Below, piece by piece: positions 23,670-33,751 of a stretch of 37,231 nt of DNA. Source of the DNA: Chloroflexota bacterium (GTDB lineage: Bacteria > Chloroflexota > Dehalococcoidia > SZUA-161); assembly GCA_021787935.1 (NCBI GenBank), contig JAJYLC010000014.1, positions 1 through 37,231 on the forward strand, in the 5' to 3' direction. Each line of letters starts with the position of its first letter. Positions within the stretch are counted from its first letter, which is position 1. The notes beneath the pieces are model-generated. The model was not told the DNA's origin. It was given only the letters and a program-made list of their open reading frames with translations, and ran no database searches. Both the position numbers and the translations under genes were made by a program.

Positions 23670-23684
23670 GGGCCGCAAAGATTA

Positions 23685-23693
23685 TGGTATACT
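23685..23693 (+). promoter_or_regulatory. Extended -10 promoter of the comB-family gene
   Basis: TGG followed by TATACT (23688-23693; TG at 23686 with the preceding T at 23685) sits 18 bp before the ATG at 23711. The predicted leader is therefore about 12 nt, which is short. No good -35 is seen. Confidence 0.5.
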
Positions 23694-23710
23694 ACACACG
23701 GCGGTGCGAA

Positions 23711-24466
23711 ATGAAAATAGATGTAATTGTCGCTCCAACTCTTCTCGATGAAAAAACCATCAAGGGATATCAGTGTGCTGTAATCGATGTTCTCAGAGCG
23801 ACCAGCACTATCATCACAGCCTTGGTGAGCGGGGCGACCGGAGTGTGCCCATGTAAGACTATTAAAGAAGCGAAGACAAGCGTGGCAAAGCTGCCTCGCG
23901 GCTCCTACATTCTGGGTGGGGAAGAGATGGGCGAAAACATCCCTGGGTTTGACCTGGGGAACTCGCCTTTTGAATATATGTCCAGGGAAGTGGTTGAAGG
24001 CAGGGTCATATACTCTTATACCACGAATGGCACAGGTGCGATCCGCAAAGCCTTCGAAAAGAGCGGTAACCCGGTATACATAGCTGCTCTCTTGAACTTG
24101 TCTGCCGTGTCATCCGCGCTGGTAAAGGCAGCTTCTGTTGACAAATTCGAAGGAATTAACATTCTCTGTGGAGGTCGCCAGGGCCAGCCTTCAGAAGAGG
24201 ACAATTTCTGCGCAGGTCTGATGATTGATACGCTTACTCGCGGACTCAAGGCATGCGGTATTGCGCCTCGATTGGGAGATACCGCTTCCACCGTAGCCAA
24301 TGATGCGTTATCCAAGAGAGGCCGCAGTCTGGAAGTGCTGAGGTCGAGCGAGCACGGCCGTTTTCTGGAATCTATCGGTTTCGCAGACGACCTGATATTT
24401 GCCTCCAGAATAGACTTTTACAATATTGTTCCTCTCTTTAATGGAGAGATGGTCGTCCTGCCCTAG
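23711..24466 (+). CDS. 2-phosphosulfolactate phosphatase (ComB) family protein
   Basis: The 251-residue protein shows the ComB pattern: MKIDVIVAP, then AVIDVLRATSTIITAL, GGEEMGENIPGFDLGNSP, SYTTNGTGAI and a C-terminal FADDLIFASRIDFYNIVPLF. In methanogens ComB dephosphorylates 2-phosphosulfolactate in coenzyme M synthesis; bacterial homologues are common and mostly untested. No other coenzyme M genes are present here. I prefer ATG 23711 over an in-frame ATG at 23684, which overlaps the -10 element. The 50 bp after it lead into the nrpR promoter. Confidence 0.85.
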   Translation: MKIDVIVAPTLLDEKTIKGYQCAVIDVLRATSTIITALVSGATGVCPCKTIKEAKTSVAKLPRGSYILGGEEMGENIPGFDLGNSPFEYMSREVVEGRVIYSYTTNGTGAIRKAFEKSGNPVYIAALLNLSAVSSALVKAASVDKFEGINILCGGRQGQPSEEDNFCAGLMIDTLTRGLKACGIAPRLGDTASTVANDALSKRGRSLEVLRSSEHGRFLESIGFADDLIFASRIDFYNIVPLFNGEMVVLP

Positions 24467-24532
24467 TCGTCCTCGGACTGTTAAACGCGCCTACTTCGGC
24501 ATCTAGGGGTGCACGACTCTGTCACCAGGCCA

Positions 24533-24561
24533 TTGACAGGTCTCCTCAATTGTTATATGAT
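24533..24561 (+). promoter_or_regulatory. nrpR promoter
   Basis: TTGACA (24533-24538), an exact 17-bp spacer (24539-24555) and TATGAT (24556-24561) form a near-consensus promoter. Its position shows that transcription starts near 24568. The upstream in-frame ATG at 24509 therefore cannot be the start on this transcript. Confidence 0.8.
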
Positions 24562-24579
24562 TAGGAAAACAGTTTCCTA
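24562..24579. promoter_or_regulatory. Candidate NrpR operator (GGAA-N6-TTCC)
   Basis: TAGGAAA (24562-24568) and TTTCCTA (24573-24579) form a perfect inverted repeat that contains GGAA-N6-TTCC at 24564-24577. That is the operator form reported for NrpR in Methanococcus maripaludis. It starts immediately after the -10 and covers the predicted transcription start, the place where a repressor would block its own gene. Confidence 0.65.
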
Positions 24580-24613: not shown

Positions 24614-25606
24614 ATGGGATTTGAAACACAGGATGTTGAGAGGAAAGTACTCTCAATCCTTAAAGTTTTAAGCGATTCCCAGGAGCCGCTGGGGGCAAGG
24701 GTTATCGCCCAACGTTTGAAGAATCACGGCGTTGAATTAGGCGAAAGGGCTGTTCGATACCATCTCCAACTGACGGACGAGCGCGGCTTGACCAAGCCCG
24801 CCGGTCGGGACGGCCGTTTGCTCACAGAGCAGGGGATGGAGGAAATAAGGAGCGCCCTCGTTAAATATAAGGTCGGCTTTGCTATCTCCAGAATCGAGTT
24901 GCTCGCCTTCCGCACCGACTTCGACTTCGAAAAACGCAGTGGACTCATTCCTGCCAACGTCTCCTTCTTCCCCAGGGAAAAATTCAAGGCAGCGCTGCAA
25001 GTGATGAAGCCGGCCTTTGAGGCAGGGCTCTGCGTAAGCGACCTTGTAGCCGTGGCTTCCGAGGGAGAGAAACTGGGCGAGTTTGTTGTTCCCAAGGGCA
25101 TGTCAGGATTGGCTACAGTTTGCAGCATTGTCATTAATGGCTCTTTGCTAAAAGCCGGGGTTCCGATGGACTCACGGTTCGGTGGAATACTACAGATTCG
25201 AAACCGGAAACCCTTCCGCTTCGTAGAGCTCATCCAGTATGCCGGCTCGTCTTTGGACCCTTCGGAGGTATTTATCAGGGCCAGGATGACCTCTGTAGGA
25301 GAGGCAGCTAAAAAGGGTGAAGGTAAGATACTGGCCAACTTTCGTGAGATACCAGCCCTCTGCCGCGGTATAGCGGAGAAAGTGGTGCTGGGGCTGAAAG
25401 AAGCTGGCCTGGGCGGCCTATTAATTATGGGAAATACCAGCGAGCCGGTATGTGAAATCCCCGTTGAACTCAACCGGATCGGGATGATCCTGTTAGGCGG
25501 AATGAACCCCGTGGCTGCTGCCGAGGAAGCTGGAGTAGAGGCAGAAAACCATGGCATGAGCACTATTATGGAATACGAGGACTTAATTAAATTCCAGGAG
25601 TTGTAA
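24614..25606 (+). CDS. nrpR: NrpR-type 2-oxoglutarate-responsive transcriptional repressor (wHTH + one NrpR/DUF128 domain)
   Basis: From ATG 24614 the protein is 330 residues. It has an N-terminal winged helix (about 5-75: RKVLSILKVLSDSQEPLGAR, GERAVRYHLQLTDERGL) and one DUF128/NrpR effector domain (about 95-325: FGGILQIRNRKPFRFVELI, GNTSEPVCEIPV, LLGGMNPVAAAEEAG). In euryarchaea NrpR represses nif and glnA genes and is released by 2-oxoglutarate; some archaeal forms have two effector domains, this one has one. A longer ATG start at 24509 is rejected because the promoter lies inside it. hisF begins one base after its stop, and a glutamate synthase-family gene follows. Confidence 0.85.
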   Translation: MGFETQDVERKVLSILKVLSDSQEPLGARVIAQRLKNHGVELGERAVRYHLQLTDERGLTKPAGRDGRLLTEQGMEEIRSALVKYKVGFAISRIELLAFRTDFDFEKRSGLIPANVSFFPREKFKAALQVMKPAFEAGLCVSDLVAVASEGEKLGEFVVPKGMSGLATVCSIVINGSLLKAGVPMDSRFGGILQIRNRKPFRFVELIQYAGSSLDPSEVFIRARMTSVGEAAKKGEGKILANFREIPALCRGIAEKVVLGLKEAGLGGLLIMGNTSEPVCEIPVELNRIGMILLGGMNPVAAAEEAGVEAENHGMSTIMEYEDLIKFQEL

Positions 25607-26377
25607 ATGGATATAGTAAAAGTTATACCTTGCCTCGATATTAAGGATGGCAGGGTAGTGAAGGGCGTAAAATTTGTGAACCTGAAAGATGCCCGTGACC
25701 CTGTGGAGGCAGCCAGAGCCTATTGCAAGGAAGGTGCAGACGAACTCGTCTTCCTCGATATCTTCGCCACCGTACAGGACAGAAAGACCAGACTAGAATG
25801 GGTCAAAAAGGTCTGCGATGTGGTAACCGTCCCCTTCGCTGTGGGCGGGGGCATAGGAAGCGTTGAGGATATGCAGGAGCTGTTCAAAATCGGTGTGAAC
25901 AAGGTCTCCATCAATACTGCCGCCGTGAAAAATCCCGACCTGATAAAACAGGCTGCCAGGAAATTCGGTAAAGAGAAGATTGTCGTGGCCATCGATGGGA
26001 AAAAGAACCCTAAAAGCAGTAAATCACCCAGGCTTGAGGTGGTGATTAAGAGCGGCACCGAAGGAACAGGCCTGGATATCGTGAAATGGTCGAAACAGGT
26101 GGAGAAGCTGGGCGCGGGAGAGATTCTGCTTACCAGCAAGGATGCTGATGGTACAAAGAAGGGGTATGACCTGGAGATGACGAAAGCGTGCGCCGAAGCG
26201 GTCTCCATACCTGTTACTGCTTCAGGCGGTGCGGGCAAATTGGAGCATCTCTATGAGGCAGTAGCAATTGGCAAAGCATCGGCTGTGCTTTGCGCTTCAG
26301 TCTTTCACTTCGGTGAGATATCAATACCCGAAGCTAAGAAGTATCTTAAAGAAAGAGGTATTCCGGTAAGAATCTAA
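25607..26377 (+). CDS. hisF: Imidazole glycerol phosphate synthase cyclase subunit HisF
   Basis: The 256-residue (beta-alpha)8 enzyme makes IGP and AICAR from PRFAR and ammonia in histidine synthesis. Catalytic Asp11 is in PCLDIKDGRVVKG and the second Asp is in VVAIDGKKN (about 130). AVGGGIGSVEDM and TASGGAGKLEH are the phosphate-binding loops. Its ATG directly follows the nrpR stop, with CCAGGAG upstream inside nrpR. It is separated from all other his genes here, so histidine synthesis may be partly under NrpR control (inference). Confidence 0.96.
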   Translation: MDIVKVIPCLDIKDGRVVKGVKFVNLKDARDPVEAARAYCKEGADELVFLDIFATVQDRKTRLEWVKKVCDVVTVPFAVGGGIGSVEDMQELFKIGVNKVSINTAAVKNPDLIKQAARKFGKEKIVVAIDGKKNPKSSKSPRLEVVIKSGTEGTGLDIVKWSKQVEKLGAGEILLTSKDADGTKKGYDLEMTKACAEAVSIPVTASGGAGKLEHLYEAVAIGKASAVLCASVFHFGEISIPEAKKYLKERGIPVRI

Positions 26378-26439: not shown

Positions 26440-28032
26440 ATGAACCTGAGACGGCCAAATTCTAATGAAGCAACCAGGACAGCCAATCGCTCTCGCGATG
26501 TAGTGCCAGGCAGCGGACTTTGCACGCGTTGTGTCGATGGCTGCCGGGGAAACTGCGAGGTATTCAAGGCATCATTTCGCAGTAGAGAGCTGATATACCC
26601 TGGACCGTTCGGGGAGATAACCGCCGGCTGTGATAAAGACTATCCCGTTGATTACTCGCATCTCAATATCCAGGGGTACGCCCTTGGGGCCAGAGGATTA
26701 CCCAAGGGTGTTAAGGGGAATCCGGATACAGCTATTTTCCCTGCCGTGGACACCGAGACCGAATACGGCTGGACAAAGAAGGTCCGGATGCGTATTCCTA
26801 TCTTCACCGGGGCTCTTGGTTCCACCGAAATAGCCCGCAAGAACTGGGAGCACTTCGCAATCGGCGCTGCTATCAGCGGAGTTACCCTGGTTTGCGGCGA
26901 GAACGTTTGCGGCATCGACCCTAAGCTTGAACTCGATGCCAAGGGCAAAGTGGCTTTATCACCCGACATGGACCGTCGCATTGAGATATACAGGCGCTAC
27001 CACCAGGATTACGGCGAGATCCTGGTGCAGATGAATGTAGAGGACACCCGGCTGGGTGTCGCAGAGTATGTTCACAAGAAACATGGCCTTGAGACTATTG
27101 AGTTGAAATGGGGGCAGGGTGCCAAATGCATTGGGGGCGAGATTAAGGTCAGTAGCCTGGATAGAGCATTAGAGCTTCAAAAACGCGGATATCTTATAAC
27201 CCCTGACCCTTCGAATCCCGTTAACCAGGCTGCCTTCGGAAGCGGAGCCATCAAGGAATTTGAACGGCACAGCCGTCTCGGTTTCATCGACGAAGGTGGT
27301 TTCTACGCTGAAGTCAAGAGGCTAAGAGATATCGGGTTCAAACGGATTACTTTGAAGACGGGCGCTTACGGCCTGCGCGAGCTGGCCATGGCCATCAAAT
27401 GGGGCTCGAAAGCCAAGATTGACCTGCTTACTATAGACGGCGCTTCTGGCGGAACCGGCATGAGCCCGTGGCCCATGATGGAGGAGTGGGGCATTCCACC
27501 CGTCTATCTCCATTCCTCAGCCTACGAGTTCTGCAAGAAGTTGGCTGATAAAGGCGAGCGCCCACCTGACATAGCTTTTGCCGGAGGATTCAGCAGTGAA
27601 GATGGCGTCTTCAAGGCGCTCGCGCTGGGCGCACCGTTTACCAAAGCAGTCTGCATGGGGCGCGCTTTGATGATACCGGGCATGGTGGGCAAGAACATCA
27701 GCGTCTGGCTTAAGGAAAACAACTTGCCCAAGACTGTCAGTGAGTTTGGTTCTACTCCAGAGGAGATCTTTGTATGCTGGGAGGCTGTTTCGAATATAGT
27801 AGGCAAGAGTGAGATGAAGGACATCCCACTGGGGGCTATCGGAATATACAGCTATGCTGAGAAGATAAGAGTGGGATTGCAGCAATTAATGGCTGGTGCC
27901 AGATGCTTCAGCGTACCCGCTATCAGCAGGAACGAACTCATGTCGTTGACCAATGAGTGTGCTAAGGTCACTGGGATACCCTATCTAATGGACGCCTACA
28001 GACAAGAGGCCATGAAGGTTCTCGACAGCTAG
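26440..28032 (+). CDS. FMN-binding glutamate synthase-family protein with N-terminal four-Cys motif
   Basis: The 530-residue protein is the FMN/synthase (GltB central) domain without the N-terminal glutaminase or C-terminal GXGXG parts of full GltB. Core motifs are ELKWGQGAKCIGGE, GFKRITLKTGAYG, TIDGASGGTGMSPWPMMEEW and FAGGFSSEDGVFKALALGA. An extra N-terminal C28-x2-C31-x3-C35-x3-C39 motif may hold an Fe-S cluster. Such stand-alone forms include archaeal-type glutamate synthases and glutamate-dependent methyltransferase subunits. Its place downstream of nrpR favours nitrogen assimilation. AAGGAG precedes the ATG and a terminator follows. Confidence 0.85.
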   Translation: MNLRRPNSNEATRTANRSRDVVPGSGLCTRCVDGCRGNCEVFKASFRSRELIYPGPFGEITAGCDKDYPVDYSHLNIQGYALGARGLPKGVKGNPDTAIFPAVDTETEYGWTKKVRMRIPIFTGALGSTEIARKNWEHFAIGAAISGVTLVCGENVCGIDPKLELDAKGKVALSPDMDRRIEIYRRYHQDYGEILVQMNVEDTRLGVAEYVHKKHGLETIELKWGQGAKCIGGEIKVSSLDRALELQKRGYLITPDPSNPVNQAAFGSGAIKEFERHSRLGFIDEGGFYAEVKRLRDIGFKRITLKTGAYGLRELAMAIKWGSKAKIDLLTIDGASGGTGMSPWPMMEEWGIPPVYLHSSAYEFCKKLADKGERPPDIAFAGGFSSEDGVFKALALGAPFTKAVCMGRALMIPGMVGKNISVWLKENNLPKTVSEFGSTPEEIFVCWEAVSNIVGKSEMKDIPLGAIGIYSYAEKIRVGLQQLMAGARCFSVPAISRNELMSLTNECAKVTGIPYLMDAYRQEAMKVLDS

Positions 28033-28051: not shown

Positions 28052-28088
28052 AGCGGGCTTCGACATTTGTCGAAACCCGCTTGTTTTT
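28052..28088 (+). terminator. Terminator of the nrpR-hisF-glutamate synthase operon
   Basis: AGCGGG-c-TTCGAC (28052-28064) pairs with GTCGAA-a-CCCGCT (28069-28081) with one mismatch and an ATTT loop, followed by TGTTTTT. It lies 20 bp after the stop. Confidence 0.88.
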
Positions 28089-28251: not shown

Positions 28252-28620
28252 ATGGCGTTCAATTGGGGGCCGAATTTCATTGTTCCATCCGAGGCACTGA
28301 AATCCTATTCCGGTATCGTGCTACTGAGAGAGGAATACGATGAAGATCTATTGGAGAAGGAGTTGAAGGAGCTCAACATCCCCGGGGTTGTGGAGAAAGT
28401 CACTAATCCCTGGTATTATCGTAAGAAGAACACTGATACCTGGATTAAAATCGGTGAATCCCGTAATAGGGCGCAAAACTTTCCTGTCTCATGGGATACG
28501 ACCGCTCTGAAAAACGGGAGTTACGAAGTACTAGGCCTTATGCATGTATTCGTAAGGGTTGGCACCAAGGAGCATGCCATCGCCAGGCAGAACATTGTAG
28601 AGGTCACGGTTAAGAACTGA
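28252..28620 (+). CDS. Hypothetical protein, possible Ig-like beta-sandwich
   Basis: The 122-residue protein has no signal peptide or membrane helix. The C-terminal half (WDTTALKNGSYEVLGLMHVF, ending IVEVTVKN) resembles the W-x-T-x4-NGSY...VTV pattern of bacterial Ig-like domains. I do not recognise the family. AAAGGAGG precedes the ATG. It stands alone between terminators. The 236 bp after it hold no gene, only a palindromic terminator at 28803. A TTGACT at about 28163 could be its -35, but no good -10 is seen. Confidence 0.65.
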   Translation: MAFNWGPNFIVPSEALKSYSGIVLLREEYDEDLLEKELKELNIPGVVEKVTNPWYYRKKNTDTWIKIGESRNRAQNFPVSWDTTALKNGSYEVLGLMHVFVRVGTKEHAIARQNIVEVTVKN

Positions 28621-28856: not shown

Positions 28857-31823
28857 TTACCACTTTTCCTGTTGTAGCCTGGCTATGAGCCACTTCTTCA
28901 GCCGCTCGTCCAGCTTGCCCACCCAGGACTCTATCTTCCGAATGTCGCCGCTGGCGATAGCTGCCTTCTCCTCAGGAGTCAAGTCATACTCTTTCAGCGC
29001 CTCAACAGGATTTTCCGCCAGCCTGGCGAAGAAGGCGTTATCCTGAGATGCCCTATCCAGTACCGCAAGCACTGCTTTGACTGCGGAAACCTTGAACTCG
29101 GGGATCTTCGCCGACGGGTCTGAGGCAGTACTGGTCACCACGTTTACCGGCAGCTCGCTCCAGTGGAACGCCATGAAGGCGAGACCAGGCGCAGTCTCAT
29201 CCGTTATGCGAACCGGCGCCTCTATTTTACCTCTCTCTGATGCTATGGCTACTATGTCGCCATCCACGATACCGAGTTTCAACGCATCTTCGGGATGGAT
29301 GTCGATAGTGCCGTTGGGGCACAGCTTGTCCAGCACTTCAGACCGGCGTGTCATGCTGCCGGCATGGTAGTGCTCCAATATTCTTCCTGTGGTAAGGATA
29401 AGCGGGAATCCTGACGATACTGATTCCGCCGGGGGCTTGTACTCTACGGCATGGAATTTGCCCAGCCCGCGATTGAATTTGCCCTGGTGCAGGAAAGGAG
29501 TTCCGGGATGGTTCCTGTCAGTGCAGGGCCACTGCAATCCATAGCCATTCAGTCGGTCATAATGAATACCACCGTATATCGGGGTCAGCGAGGCAATCTC
29601 CTCCATTATCTGTTCGGGGTTCTTACGGCCGAAGGGATGTCCCATCTTTTCGGCCAGCAAGGTAATAATCTCCCAGTCCGCTTTAGCCTCACCGGGAGGC
29701 TCGACGGCTTTTCTCACCCTCTGCACGCGCCTTTCGGTGTTAGTGAATGTGCCATCTTTTTCAGCGTAAGCCATCGCAGGTAGAATAACATCCGCGATAA
29801 CGGCTGTCTCTGTGGGGAATATGTCTTGTACCACCAGGAACTCCAGGTTGGTCAGGCTCTGGCGGGTATGCCGCATATCAGGGTCGGTGATGATTGGGTT
29901 CTCTCCCATGATATACATCGCCTTAACGCCACTACCCGGCTTGGTGCTCATCATCTCTCCCATAGTAAGCCCTGGTTTTGCCGGTAGCGCGCTGACACCC
30001 CATGCAGTCTCGGCTGCCTTCCTTTTCTCCTGGTCTGTTACCGCCTGATAGCCTGTTAGCACATTAGGCAGGGCTCCCATATCGCAGGCTCCCTGGACAT
30101 TGTTCTGGCCTCTCAGCGGGCTCAAGCCGGTGCCTTCCCGACCGATATTGCCGGTCAGCATCAGCAGGTTCGCCAGAGTCTTGACATTATCTGTGCCCGT
30201 GGTGTGCTGAGTTATGCCCATGCCGTATAAAACGGCAGCCTTATCGACACCGGCAAACATGCGTGCGGCCTTTATTATGTCGGTGCTGGGTACGCCGGTT
30301 ATCTTTTCGGCCATCTCCGGCGTGTATTTTTTGACAGTCTCCGCCAGTTGCTCAAAGCCCTCAGTTCGCTCCTGGATAAACTTCTTGTTAAGAAGGTTCT
30401 CCTCGATAATTACGTGCATCATGGCATTGATTAGAGCCACGTCCGTTCCGGGCTTATGCCGTAAATGTATTGATGCCATTTTGGCCAGCTCGGTGGTACG
30501 GGGGTCGGCGATAATAAGCTTGGTGCCCTTGAATTTCACTCCCTGCCGGATGAGCCGTCCGATAATGGGATGACACTCTGTAGTATTGGAGCCTATCACG
30601 AAGAGCAGCTCAGCCTTACCCACATCGGCTATTGAGTTGGTCATTGCTCCGCTTCCGAACGCTTGGGCCAGACCGGCCACAGTGGGGGAGTGTCAGAGGC
30701 GGGCACAGTGGTCTATATTGTTGGTCCCGATTACCGCCCGGGTGAACTTTTGCAGGAGGTAATTCTCCTCGTTGGTGCACTTGGCCGAACTCAGCACACC
30801 GATGCTATCAGGACCGTATTTCTCCTTTATCTGGTTAAGTCTCTTGGCGACCAGGTCGAGCGCCTCATCCCAGGTTGCTTCGCGGAATATATCTTTGAAG
30901 TTGCCGTTGACCTGTATGTCTTTACCTTTGCCCTCTTTTCTGATCAGGGGCTTGGTCAGCCTGCTGGGATGATTAACGAAGTCGAAGCCGAAGCGTCCCT
31001 TGACGCAGAGGCCGCCCTTGTTTACCGGGCTTTCCCTATCGCCCTGGACTTCGACGATCTCATTGCCGCGCATGCCCAGATATATCGAGCAGCCGACACC
31101 GCAATAAGGGCAGATAGTTTTGACGTGGCGCGTCGCCTGCCTGGTGCGCTTGGGAACCAGAGCGCCTGTGGGGCACCTGGCGATGCACTCGCCGCAGGAC
31201 TCGCAAATTGAATCATGTATCGGCTTATCGCCGAATGTGCTTACTTTAGCTGCATAGCCGCGGTATGCCAGGTCGATAGCGCCCACGCCTGCTATTTCCT
31301 GACAGGCCCGCACGCATCTGCCACAGAGAATGCACTTGTTATGGTCGCGGTCGAAGGCAGGGTGGCTCTTATCAATGGGCAAAACCCTCGTGCCCTTACG
31401 CAGCCGGTCGAAGTGCTCCTGCTCGATGCCCAGGTATCGGGCGACCTTTTGCAGTTCGCACTGCTGGTTCTTAGCGCAGGTGAGGCAATCGCCGATGTGG
31501 TTAGCCATGATTAGCTCGATGGCTATGCGTCGTGCCTGGTTAACTTTGGGCGTCTCGGTATGAACTACCATCTTATCTGCTGCCGGAGTAGTACAGGAAC
31601 TGACTATGCCGCGCATTCCATCAATCTCAACTACGCATAGCCGGCAAGCCCCGTAGGGTTTCAGGTCGGGGTCGTAGCAAAGTGTAGGTATATATATGTC
31701 GGCACCCAGTGCCGCCTCGAGTACAGTAACCCCCTTGGGCGCCTCTACCTTCTTGCCATCGATGGTCAATGTTATAGTTGCCACTTTTTTCTCTTCCGCA
31801 GTAGTTGAGGCAGTCGTGGTCAT
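28857..31823 (-). CDS. fdhA: Selenocysteine-containing formate dehydrogenase catalytic subunit (NAD-linked type), in-frame UGA read as Sec
   Basis: Reading through the TGA at 30695-30693 gives one 988-residue protein. Residues 1-230 resemble NuoG: a [2Fe-2S] set C49, C60, C63, C77; H109-x3-C113-x2-C116-x5-C122; and two [4Fe-4S] sets from C164 and C207. The molybdopterin domain starts with C238-x2-C241-x3-C245...C273. The UGA is residue 377 in HCARL-U-HSPTVAG, where formate dehydrogenases carry Sec or Cys followed by the active-site His. The two-pterin domains continue to about 915, and an extra C-terminal module of about 70 residues follows (shared with the gene at 34354). It oxidises formate or reduces CO2. 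GGGAGG precedes the ATG. A nonsense mutation is unlikely given the SECIS hairpin. Confidence 0.93.
30655..30692 (-). promoter_or_regulatory. Bacterial SECIS element after the fdhA UGA
   Basis: Directly 3' of the UGA, on the minus strand, GGCC (30678-30675) pairs with GGCC (30669-30666) around the loop GGTCT (30674-30670). The loop starts 18 nt after the UGA, the same distance and same GGTCT sequence as in E. coli fdhF. SelB recognises this loop and delivers Sec-tRNA. Confidence 0.85.
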
Positions 31824-31840
31824 CTGATTCCTCCCTTTAC

Positions 31841-33751
31841 TTAGGCCTTACCGCCTACGGGCACAGGTTCCGCCGGGGCTTTTACAGGTGCCCCTGATGA
31901 GATTGCCACTGCACTGAACTTGGCCGGGCAAACATCCAGGCATGTCCCGCATTTTGCACACTTGCTCTGGTCTATAACGTGCACCATCCGCTTGCCGCCC
32001 TTGATTGCTTCGGATGTGCAGGCTCGGATGCAGATGCCGCACCCCTGGCACTTCTCGGGGATGATATAGTAAGAGATCAGTGGCCGACAGGCTAAAGCCG
32101 GGCACCGTTTCTCGTTTATATGGGCTTCGTATTCATCTCTGAAGTAGCGAATAGTGGTCTGCACCGGATTGGGAGCCGTGCCGCCTAGAGCGCAAAGCGA
32201 GCCGTTCTTAATTGCATCGCCTACTTCCAGAAGCAGCTCTATGTCTCCGGGTCTGCCTTTGCCGTTTACTATATCCTGCAGGATATCCAGCATCTGTTTC
32301 GTTCCCAGCCTACACATTACGCATTTGCCGCAGGACTCGGATTGAGTGAAGTTAAGAAAATACCTGGCCACATCGACCATGCAAGTAGTCTCGTCCATCA
32401 CTACCATTCCGCCGGAGCCCATTATGGAGCCGGCGGCGGCTAAGGACTCATAGTCAACAGGGGAATCAAGGAAGCTTGTGGGCAGACAGCCGCCCGACGG
32501 CCCACCGGTCTGTGTCGCTTTGTATTTCTTGCCTCCCGGGATTCCGCCACCTATTCCGTAGATGATCTCACGCAGGGTTATGCCCATAGGCACCTCGATA
32601 AGCCCGGTGCGCACGACCTTGCCTACCAGTGAAAAGGTCTTGGTGCCCTTGCTTTTCTCGGTGCCGTAGCTGGCGAACCAGCTCGCGCTTTTCTGAAGAA
32701 TGGCTGAGACGTTGGCCCAGGTCTCCACGTTGTTGATATTGGTGGGTTTGCCCCAGAGACCGGATTGAGCGGGGAAGGGTGGCCGTGAGCGAGGCATGCC
32801 GCGGTTGCCTTCGATAGAGGCCATCAGGGCTGTCTCCTCGCCGCAGACGAAGGCTCCGGCGCCCTCTTTTATCTTGATATGAAAGTTAAAGCCGGAACCC
32901 AGGATATTATCGCCGAGCAATCCGCATTCCTCCATCTGTTTCAGGGCAACTACGAGCCGCTTAATTGCCAGCGGATATTCTGCGCGGATATAAACGTAGC
33001 CCTCCGATGCTCCTATGGCGTAAGCGCCGATGAGCATACCTTCAAGGACGGCGTGGGGGTCGCCTTCCATAACCGCTCTGTCCATGAAAGCCCCCGGGTC
33101 TCCTTCATCAGCGTTGCAAACAATATATTTGACGGTGCCTGGCGCATCGTGGCAGAATTGCCATTTCATCCCTGTGGGGAAGCCTGCGCCGCCTCGACCG
33201 CGCAAACCCGATTTCTTCATCTCATCGATTATTTCCTGGGGCTTCATCTTCAGCGCTTTAATGAAGCCCTCGTAGCCGCCGTTGGCGATGTAGTGCCCTA
33301 TGTTTGTGGGGTCTATGTTTCCGCAGTTGCGCAAAACGATACGGACCTGCGGCTTCAGTACAGGGAGTTCGAAGAGTTTGGGGATACCCTTCAGAGTCCC
33401 TTCGCCGCGGGTGCCCAGGGCTAGGTCAGGTCGGGGATTGTCTCCAACCAGCCAGTCTCTGATAATCTCAGCCACGAGTTCAGGTGTAAGATCGCCGTAG
33501 AAAACGCCGGGCTTGCCCGGCTTTATTACCTCGAACAGCGGTTCCGCATAGCAAAGGCCAATGCAGCCCACCTGTATGATGTCGGCCTTGATATTGTTCT
33601 TGGCTAACTCGGCGTTAAGCGCCTCCATTATGGTTTCCGCTCCCGCCGCCATACCGCAGGTGGCAGTGCCGATCAAAATGCGTGGTATCGGGCTATTCTG
33701 CATCGCCTTCCATTCGGAAGCCGCTTGTCTTTTTATCTCTTCAAAACTCAT
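31841..33751 (-). CDS. NuoF/HoxF-like diaphorase subunit of formate dehydrogenase
   Basis: The 636-residue protein has a thioredoxin-like [2Fe-2S] N-terminal domain (about 20-110), a NuoF core with GRGGAGFPTGMKW (NADH site) and NADEGDPGAFMDR (FMN site), the [4Fe-4S] motif ESCGKCVMCRLGTKQ, and a C-terminal two-cluster ferredoxin domain (CQGCGICIRAC; CAKCGTCLDVC). This architecture is that of HydB/HylB-type subunits, where NAD(H) and often ferredoxin react. It lies 17 bp before fdhA and 29 bp after the NuoE-like gene. Electron bifurcation is possible but not shown by sequence. Confidence 0.94.
   Translation of the reverse strand: MSFEEIKRQAASEWKAMQNSPIPRILIGTATCGMAAGAETIMEALNAELAKNNIKADIIQVGCIGLCYAEPLFEVIKPGKPGVFYGDLTPELVAEIIRDWLVGDNPRPDLALGTRGEGTLKGIPKLFELPVLKPQVRIVLRNCGNIDPTNIGHYIANGGYEGFIKALKMKPQEIIDEMKKSGLRGRGGAGFPTGMKWQFCHDAPGTVKYIVCNADEGDPGAFMDRAVMEGDPHAVLEGMLIGAYAIGASEGYVYIRAEYPLAIKRLVVALKQMEECGLLGDNILGSGFNFHIKIKEGAGAFVCGEETALMASIEGNRGMPRSRPPFPAQSGLWGKPTNINNVETWANVSAILQKSASWFASYGTEKSKGTKTFSLVGKVVRTGLIEVPMGITLREIIYGIGGGIPGGKKYKATQTGGPSGGCLPTSFLDSPVDYESLAAAGSIMGSGGMVVMDETTCMVDVARYFLNFTQSESCGKCVMCRLGTKQMLDILQDIVNGKGRPGDIELLLEVGDAIKNGSLCALGGTAPNPVQTTIRYFRDEYEAHINEKRCPALACRPLISYYIIPEKCQGCGICIRACTSEAIKGGKRMVHVIDQSKCAKCGTCLDVCPAKFSAVAISSGAPVKAPAEPVPVGGKA

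Follow-up and report, generated by a model that had tools for sequence, protein, structure and literature searches.

A putative NrpR operator on the promoter of an nrpR-hisF-glutamate synthase operon in a Dehalococcoidia genome

The nitrogen repressor NrpR was described from methanogens. Here, a palindrome directly follows the -10 element of an nrpR promoter in a Chloroflexota bacterium of the class Dehalococcoidia, and judging from sequence comparison it very probably serves NrpR as the switch for its own operon and for the nitrogen genes of the cell. We infer with considerable confidence that it is the operator of the NrpR encoded just downstream, that this protein would bind it and repress its own nrpR-hisF-gltS operon, and, by analogy with archaeal NrpR, that 2-oxoglutarate would be the signal. 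The site points to an archaeal-type repressor acting on bacterial promoters. For the Dehalococcoidia, the class that includes the organohalide-respiring Dehalococcoides, it also provides a concrete candidate operator and a candidate nitrogen regulon.

The nrpR operon and its promoter

The features are listed below for the window, that is, the whole stretch of 37,231 nucleotides that was analysed.

24533..24538, + strand: -35 element TTGACA, kept in most relatives
24556..24561, + strand: -10 element TATGAT, separated from the -35 element by a 17-bp spacer, kept in most relatives
24562..24579, no strand assigned: palindrome TAGGAAAACAGTTTCCTA, proposed NrpR operator, position and form conserved in relatives
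24564-24577: palindrome core GGAAAACAGTTTCC, within TAGGAAAACAGTTTCCTA
24614..25606, + strand: nrpR homologue, 330 aa, HTH_12 winged helix (14-78) and one NRD domain (NRD1_2, 87-324)
25607..26377, + strand: hisF, no gap after nrpR, TIGR00735 above cut-off
26440..28032, + strand: glutamate-synthase-like protein (gltS), PF01645 domain, gene order common to relatives
28053..28088, + strand: intrinsic terminator ending the nrpR-hisF-gltS operon, -22.8 kcal/mol, z -6.2, then a T tract

The window protein shows the arrangement of the NrpR family, a winged helix followed by an NRD regulatory domain, with matches to HTH_12 (3e-21) and NRD1_2 (4.9e-81) both far above the Pfam cut-offs, and it also matches the 3NEK chain, the solved NRD of M. 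jannaschii MJ0159 (8.8e-24). Its start, MGFETQDV, is conserved in relatives. The naming of the gene as an NrpR homologue in the first-pass annotation is thus borne out by both domains and the 3NEK match, and so is the proposed nrpR-hisF-glutamate-synthase operon, which has a strong terminator at its end. Directly upstream of the nrpR promoter lies a gene of the 2-phosphosulfolactate phosphatase family (23684-24466, ComB-like, PF04029). Beyond the terminator, a 122-aa ORF (28252-28620) has no Pfam or NCBIfam match; since a 66%-identical copy is situated between the response regulator and amtB in one relative (G007, L123), it may have a role in nitrogen assimilation.

The promoter TTGACA-N17-TATGAT scores 11/12 in a promoter scan, and TAGGAAAACAGTTTCCTA, with perfect 7-bp arms around an N4 centre, directly adjoins the 3' side of the -10 element. 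This anatomy, TAGGAAA-N4-TTTCCTA containing GGAA-N6-TTCC, had been described correctly in the first-pass annotation, which left unmentioned an ORF with a GTG start at 24509 that crosses the palindrome in frame; the start conserved in relatives is the ATG at 24614, 34 bp downstream of the palindrome. The palindrome spans the expected transcription start (~24568, given that the -10 element ends at 24561), so a bound dimer would cover the start of this sigma-70-type promoter and block RNA polymerase directly. In the proposed mechanism, an NrpR dimer would read the GGNAA half-sites, here GGAAA and TTTCC, and thereby repress its own operon; the two-fold symmetry of the site agrees with binding by a dimer or oligomer. 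Under nitrogen shortage, 2-oxoglutarate would accumulate and the repressor would be released, a control that is taken from the family by analogy with archaeal NrpR.

The full palindrome could also fold with a 7-bp stem, and might then act as RNA, namely as a hairpin at the 5' end of the transcript that serves stability or attenuation. However, the first arm should contain the transcription start (near 24568), and a 47-nt form from 24567 has no hairpin, while neither form folds better than shuffles. Furthermore, of the 60 distinct sites from which the operator code is read below, only 32 have complementary bases at positions 3 and 12. An RNA hairpin is therefore very improbable, and was rejected because the hairpin is lost in the transcript from 24567 and the folding is at shuffle level.

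It should be noted that the palindrome by itself is no rarer than expected by chance. The window contains 40 perfect repeats that have 7-bp arms and loops of 3-8, and three copies of GGAA-N6-TTCC, the other two being inside predicted genes; in the genome, GGAA-N6-TTCC occurs 47 times, versus 75 for the reversed pattern. The exact 18-bp palindrome has a single copy in the 2.68-Mb assembly, and genome-wide counts of TAGGAAA-N4-TTTCCTA and GGAA-N6-TTCC, which show no enrichment, are uninformative. Consequently, the case for an operator rests on position and conservation.

Conservation and the operator code

For the comparison, 22 relatives, all Dehalococcoidia or Chloroflexi assemblies, were picked by protein alone, with 59-94% identity in the matched segments. 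The strict form GGNAA-N4-TTNCC was found within 100 bp upstream of nrpR in 13 of them, whereas 300 shuffled sets averaged 0.05, with at most 1 in any set. Just after the -10 element, nearly all 22 relatives have some version of GGNAAACRGTTNCC, which is degenerate in nearly all of those lacking the strict form. Several nrpR promoters, among them L242, L243 and L244, carry two operator-like sites in tandem; the nif genes of M. maripaludis have two operators too, to go by the title of Lie et al. 2005 as cited in PMC9765008. A chance repeat beside a good promoter would fit the 40 repeats in the window and the lack of enrichment of GGAA-N6-TTCC in the genome, but it has a negligible probability given that the site recurs at an equivalent place in the promoters of 13 of these relatives and is enriched class-wide on nitrogen operons, as described below.

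The genome carries three NrpR genes, and the product of any of them might be the one that binds, a point that was weighed against the best explanation. The winged-helix segment ERAVRYHL is identical in the window NrpR, both paralogues and 21/22 relatives, which is consistent with one shared operator code. We read this code from 60 distinct sites of NrpR-bearing genomes. Some positions that were free in the search are conserved nevertheless (C7 73%, G8 68%, G9 77%). In the flanks, the bases at -1/+15 are complementary in 40/60 sites and those at -2/+16 in 45/60. Position 3 is C in 45%, T in 30% and A in 23% of the sites. The centre of the site is asymmetric, which was also weighed against the best explanation. 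The distance between the -10 element and GG has two modes, one of 1-2 bp and one of 7-9 bp, and by inspection the short class comprises mainly nrpR promoters while the long class comprises mainly Fe-S/hisH promoters.

As read from these sites, the bacterial rule is GGNAA-N4-TTNCC, in which the 14-bp GG...CC geometry has been kept and the half-site has drifted to GGNAA. The earlier suggestion that the bacterial NrpR kept the archaeal DNA code is not supported as worded: the 14-bp GG/CC spacing is shared with the archaeal site, but the archaeal form GGAA-N6-TTCC is kept at nrpR in only 4/22 relatives and at only 9/60 class-wide sites (~15%). One genus (g71 of family f16) has GGCAA and TTGCC half-sites that lie 14-15 bp apart instead of 4 before nrpR, about one helical turn further apart (promoters L258, L261, L267, L269, L270, L278 and L279), and this change of spacing offers a natural experiment on DNA recognition by NrpR.

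A class-wide search of 245 genomes with TTGAC-N17-19-TANNNT-N0-9-GGNAA-N4-TTNCC gave 73 matches in 56 genomes, versus 5 for the reversed control. NrpR (PF01995) is encoded in 84/245 of these genomes; among 301 genomes drawn from the phylum, it was found in 27, with 23 in the class of the window and 4 outside. Site and NrpR occur together in 45 genomes, the site only in 11, NrpR only in 39 and neither in 150 (odds ratio 15.7, p=5e-16), and the corresponding counts at genus level are 38, 7, 23 and 91 (odds ratio 21, p=6e-14), with p-values that ignore shared ancestry in both cases. A match was scored as preceding a nitrogen operon if nrpR, hisF, hisH, Fe-S, gltD, gltB, gltS, glnA, glnK or amtB was among the first three genes; this applies to 50/58 scorable matches in NrpR genomes and to 1/10 in NrpR-less genomes, the lone match of the latter being in a 66%-complete assembly (G120). 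Some of the 8 exceptions in NrpR genomes are probably undercounts, since one of them (L231) has a 262-aa ORF at +55, in the place of hisF in related operons. The strict pattern is missing in 39/84 NrpR genomes; relaxed sites or sites with wider spacing occur in some of them and in some nrpR is the last gene of its operon, which does not account for all of them. Note that the search pattern was built from nrpR promoters, so the matches at nrpR are partly built in, and independent support comes from the matches that precede genes other than nrpR, from the positions left free in the pattern and from the shuffle test, for which the relatives were selected by protein.

A different nitrogen regulator might bind the site, for example a GlnR-like orphan response regulator of the OmpR type whose gene neighbours amtB-glnK-glnA. 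Regulators of the GlnR type are known to act in nitrogen control, and response-regulator genes are present in the same operons. However, 192/245 genomes have a homologue of this regulator at E<=1e-30, and its presence is negatively associated with the site (33/23/159/30, odds ratio 0.27); genomes such as G211, G258, G056, G232, G040 and G049 have both the site and NrpR with no close homologue of the response regulator. The site tracks NrpR instead, and we regard the response regulator as an unlikely binder.

A second site and the putative nitrogen regulon

A genome scan for GGNAAACRGTTNCC with one mismatch gave 29 matches, mostly within genes, versus 35 in the control, and pointed to the promoter of the Fe-S/hisH genes. 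There, GGCAAGCGGTTGCC follows TTGACA-N17-TATCCT on contig C119 and heads the genes for an Fe-S protein, hisH, a gltD-like protein and gltB1. The window site fits GGAA-N6-TTCC and GGCAAGCGGTTGCC does not; the latter fits GGNAA-N4-TTNCC with its 14-bp span, as do the class sites. Two other contigs carry related genes, namely gltB1-hisF-gltB2-gltB3-nrpR3 (C92) and a response regulator, a permease and amtB-glnK-glnA-nadE-nrpR2 (C26). The genes of the three contigs were named by sequence similarity and reading of translations, and not all of them were run through the family library. In a relative whose NrpR protein is 94% identical (G001), gltB3-nrpR3 is continuous with amtB-glnK-glnA-nadE-nrpR2, and this unbroken run suggests that C119, C92 and C26 probably form one operon in the genome of the window. 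The same operator would control a second promoter, that of the Fe-S/hisH/gltD/gltB operon, which probably continues to amtB-glnK-glnA. Upstream of amtB itself on C26, no clear site was found, nor was a convincing one found upstream of the second amtB-glnK/glnA cluster (C47).

Only two hisF genes exist in the genome (G000:C44:25607-26377 and G000:C92:3312-4079), both in operons with an NrpR gene; a third strong His_biosynth match is hisA by its start sequence. Moreover, hisH is the second gene of the C119 operon, under the second operator. Histidine synthesis thus appears tied to nitrogen control. In the window, nuoG/nuoF-like genes are also found nearby (30693-33751, - strand), and in several genomes of family f46 (L227, L231, L234) an operator-headed operon has nuoE/F/G-like genes before the glutamate-synthase gene.

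At the sequence level, sites precede the glt, gln and amt operons, which serve ammonium assimilation, in NrpR genomes, and no clear site was seen at the nifH promoter in the single nif-bearing genome among 13 searched. The first-pass annotation had proposed a scan for GGAA-N6-TTCC upstream of nitrogen genes including nif, and had named loss of the palindrome upstream of nrpR in close relatives, or its absence from other nitrogen genes, as what would speak against its reading. The palindrome is conserved in relatives, and related sites stand on glt/gln/amt operons, both on the second operon here and on operons of relatives, so neither point speaks against that reading; the strict form is rare. 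On balance, we lean slightly towards the wider view that much of the Dehalococcoidia would rely chiefly on an archaeal-type repressor for nitrogen control. This repressor would have an operator code of its own that has diverged (GGNAA-N4-TTNCC, or GGCAA-N14/15-TTGCC in one genus), would regulate its own gene, and would link the imidazole-glycerol-phosphate synthase of histidine synthesis (hisH/hisF) with glutamate synthase and glutamine synthetase in one regulon.

Comparison with known systems

In bacteria, glnA, amtB and glnK are known to be controlled by regulators of the GlnR, TnrA and NtrC types. The target genes proposed here are the same but the regulator family is unrelated, and the distribution of the site does not follow that of the OmpR-type regulator. 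That certain Bacteria have NrpR is remarked in PMC2723118, and beyond this remark nothing was found in the literature searched on NrpR targets or binding in bacteria.

In archaea, NrpR acts as a repressor of nitrogen genes that 2-oxoglutarate releases (PMC4902934; PMC2723118), and its operator is GGAA-N6-TTCC with a 14-bp span (PMC2723118). The system described here shares with that of Methanococcus maripaludis (PMC2723118) a homologous repressor with a winged helix and NRD, and a 14-bp palindrome bounded by GG and CC, here a putative operator, on nitrogen-assimilation promoters (glnA, glnK-amtB). However, the promoter here is of the bacterial sigma-70 type instead of one with a TATA box, the half-site is GGNAA instead of GGAA, the window protein has one NRD domain, and the putative regulon is rich in hisF/hisH and glutamate synthase genes, with no clear nif site found. 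The site here is also on the promoter of the repressor's own gene, whereas archaeal nrpR was reported to be unresponsive to nitrogen supply (PMC9765008). As summarised in PMC3960522, NrpRI/NrpRII of Methanosarcina likewise include a DNA-binding repressor of nitrogen genes with a common DNA regulatory sequence; there, a second protein, NrpRII, contacts TBP, whereas repression here would be direct, with the start site covered by the bound repressor.
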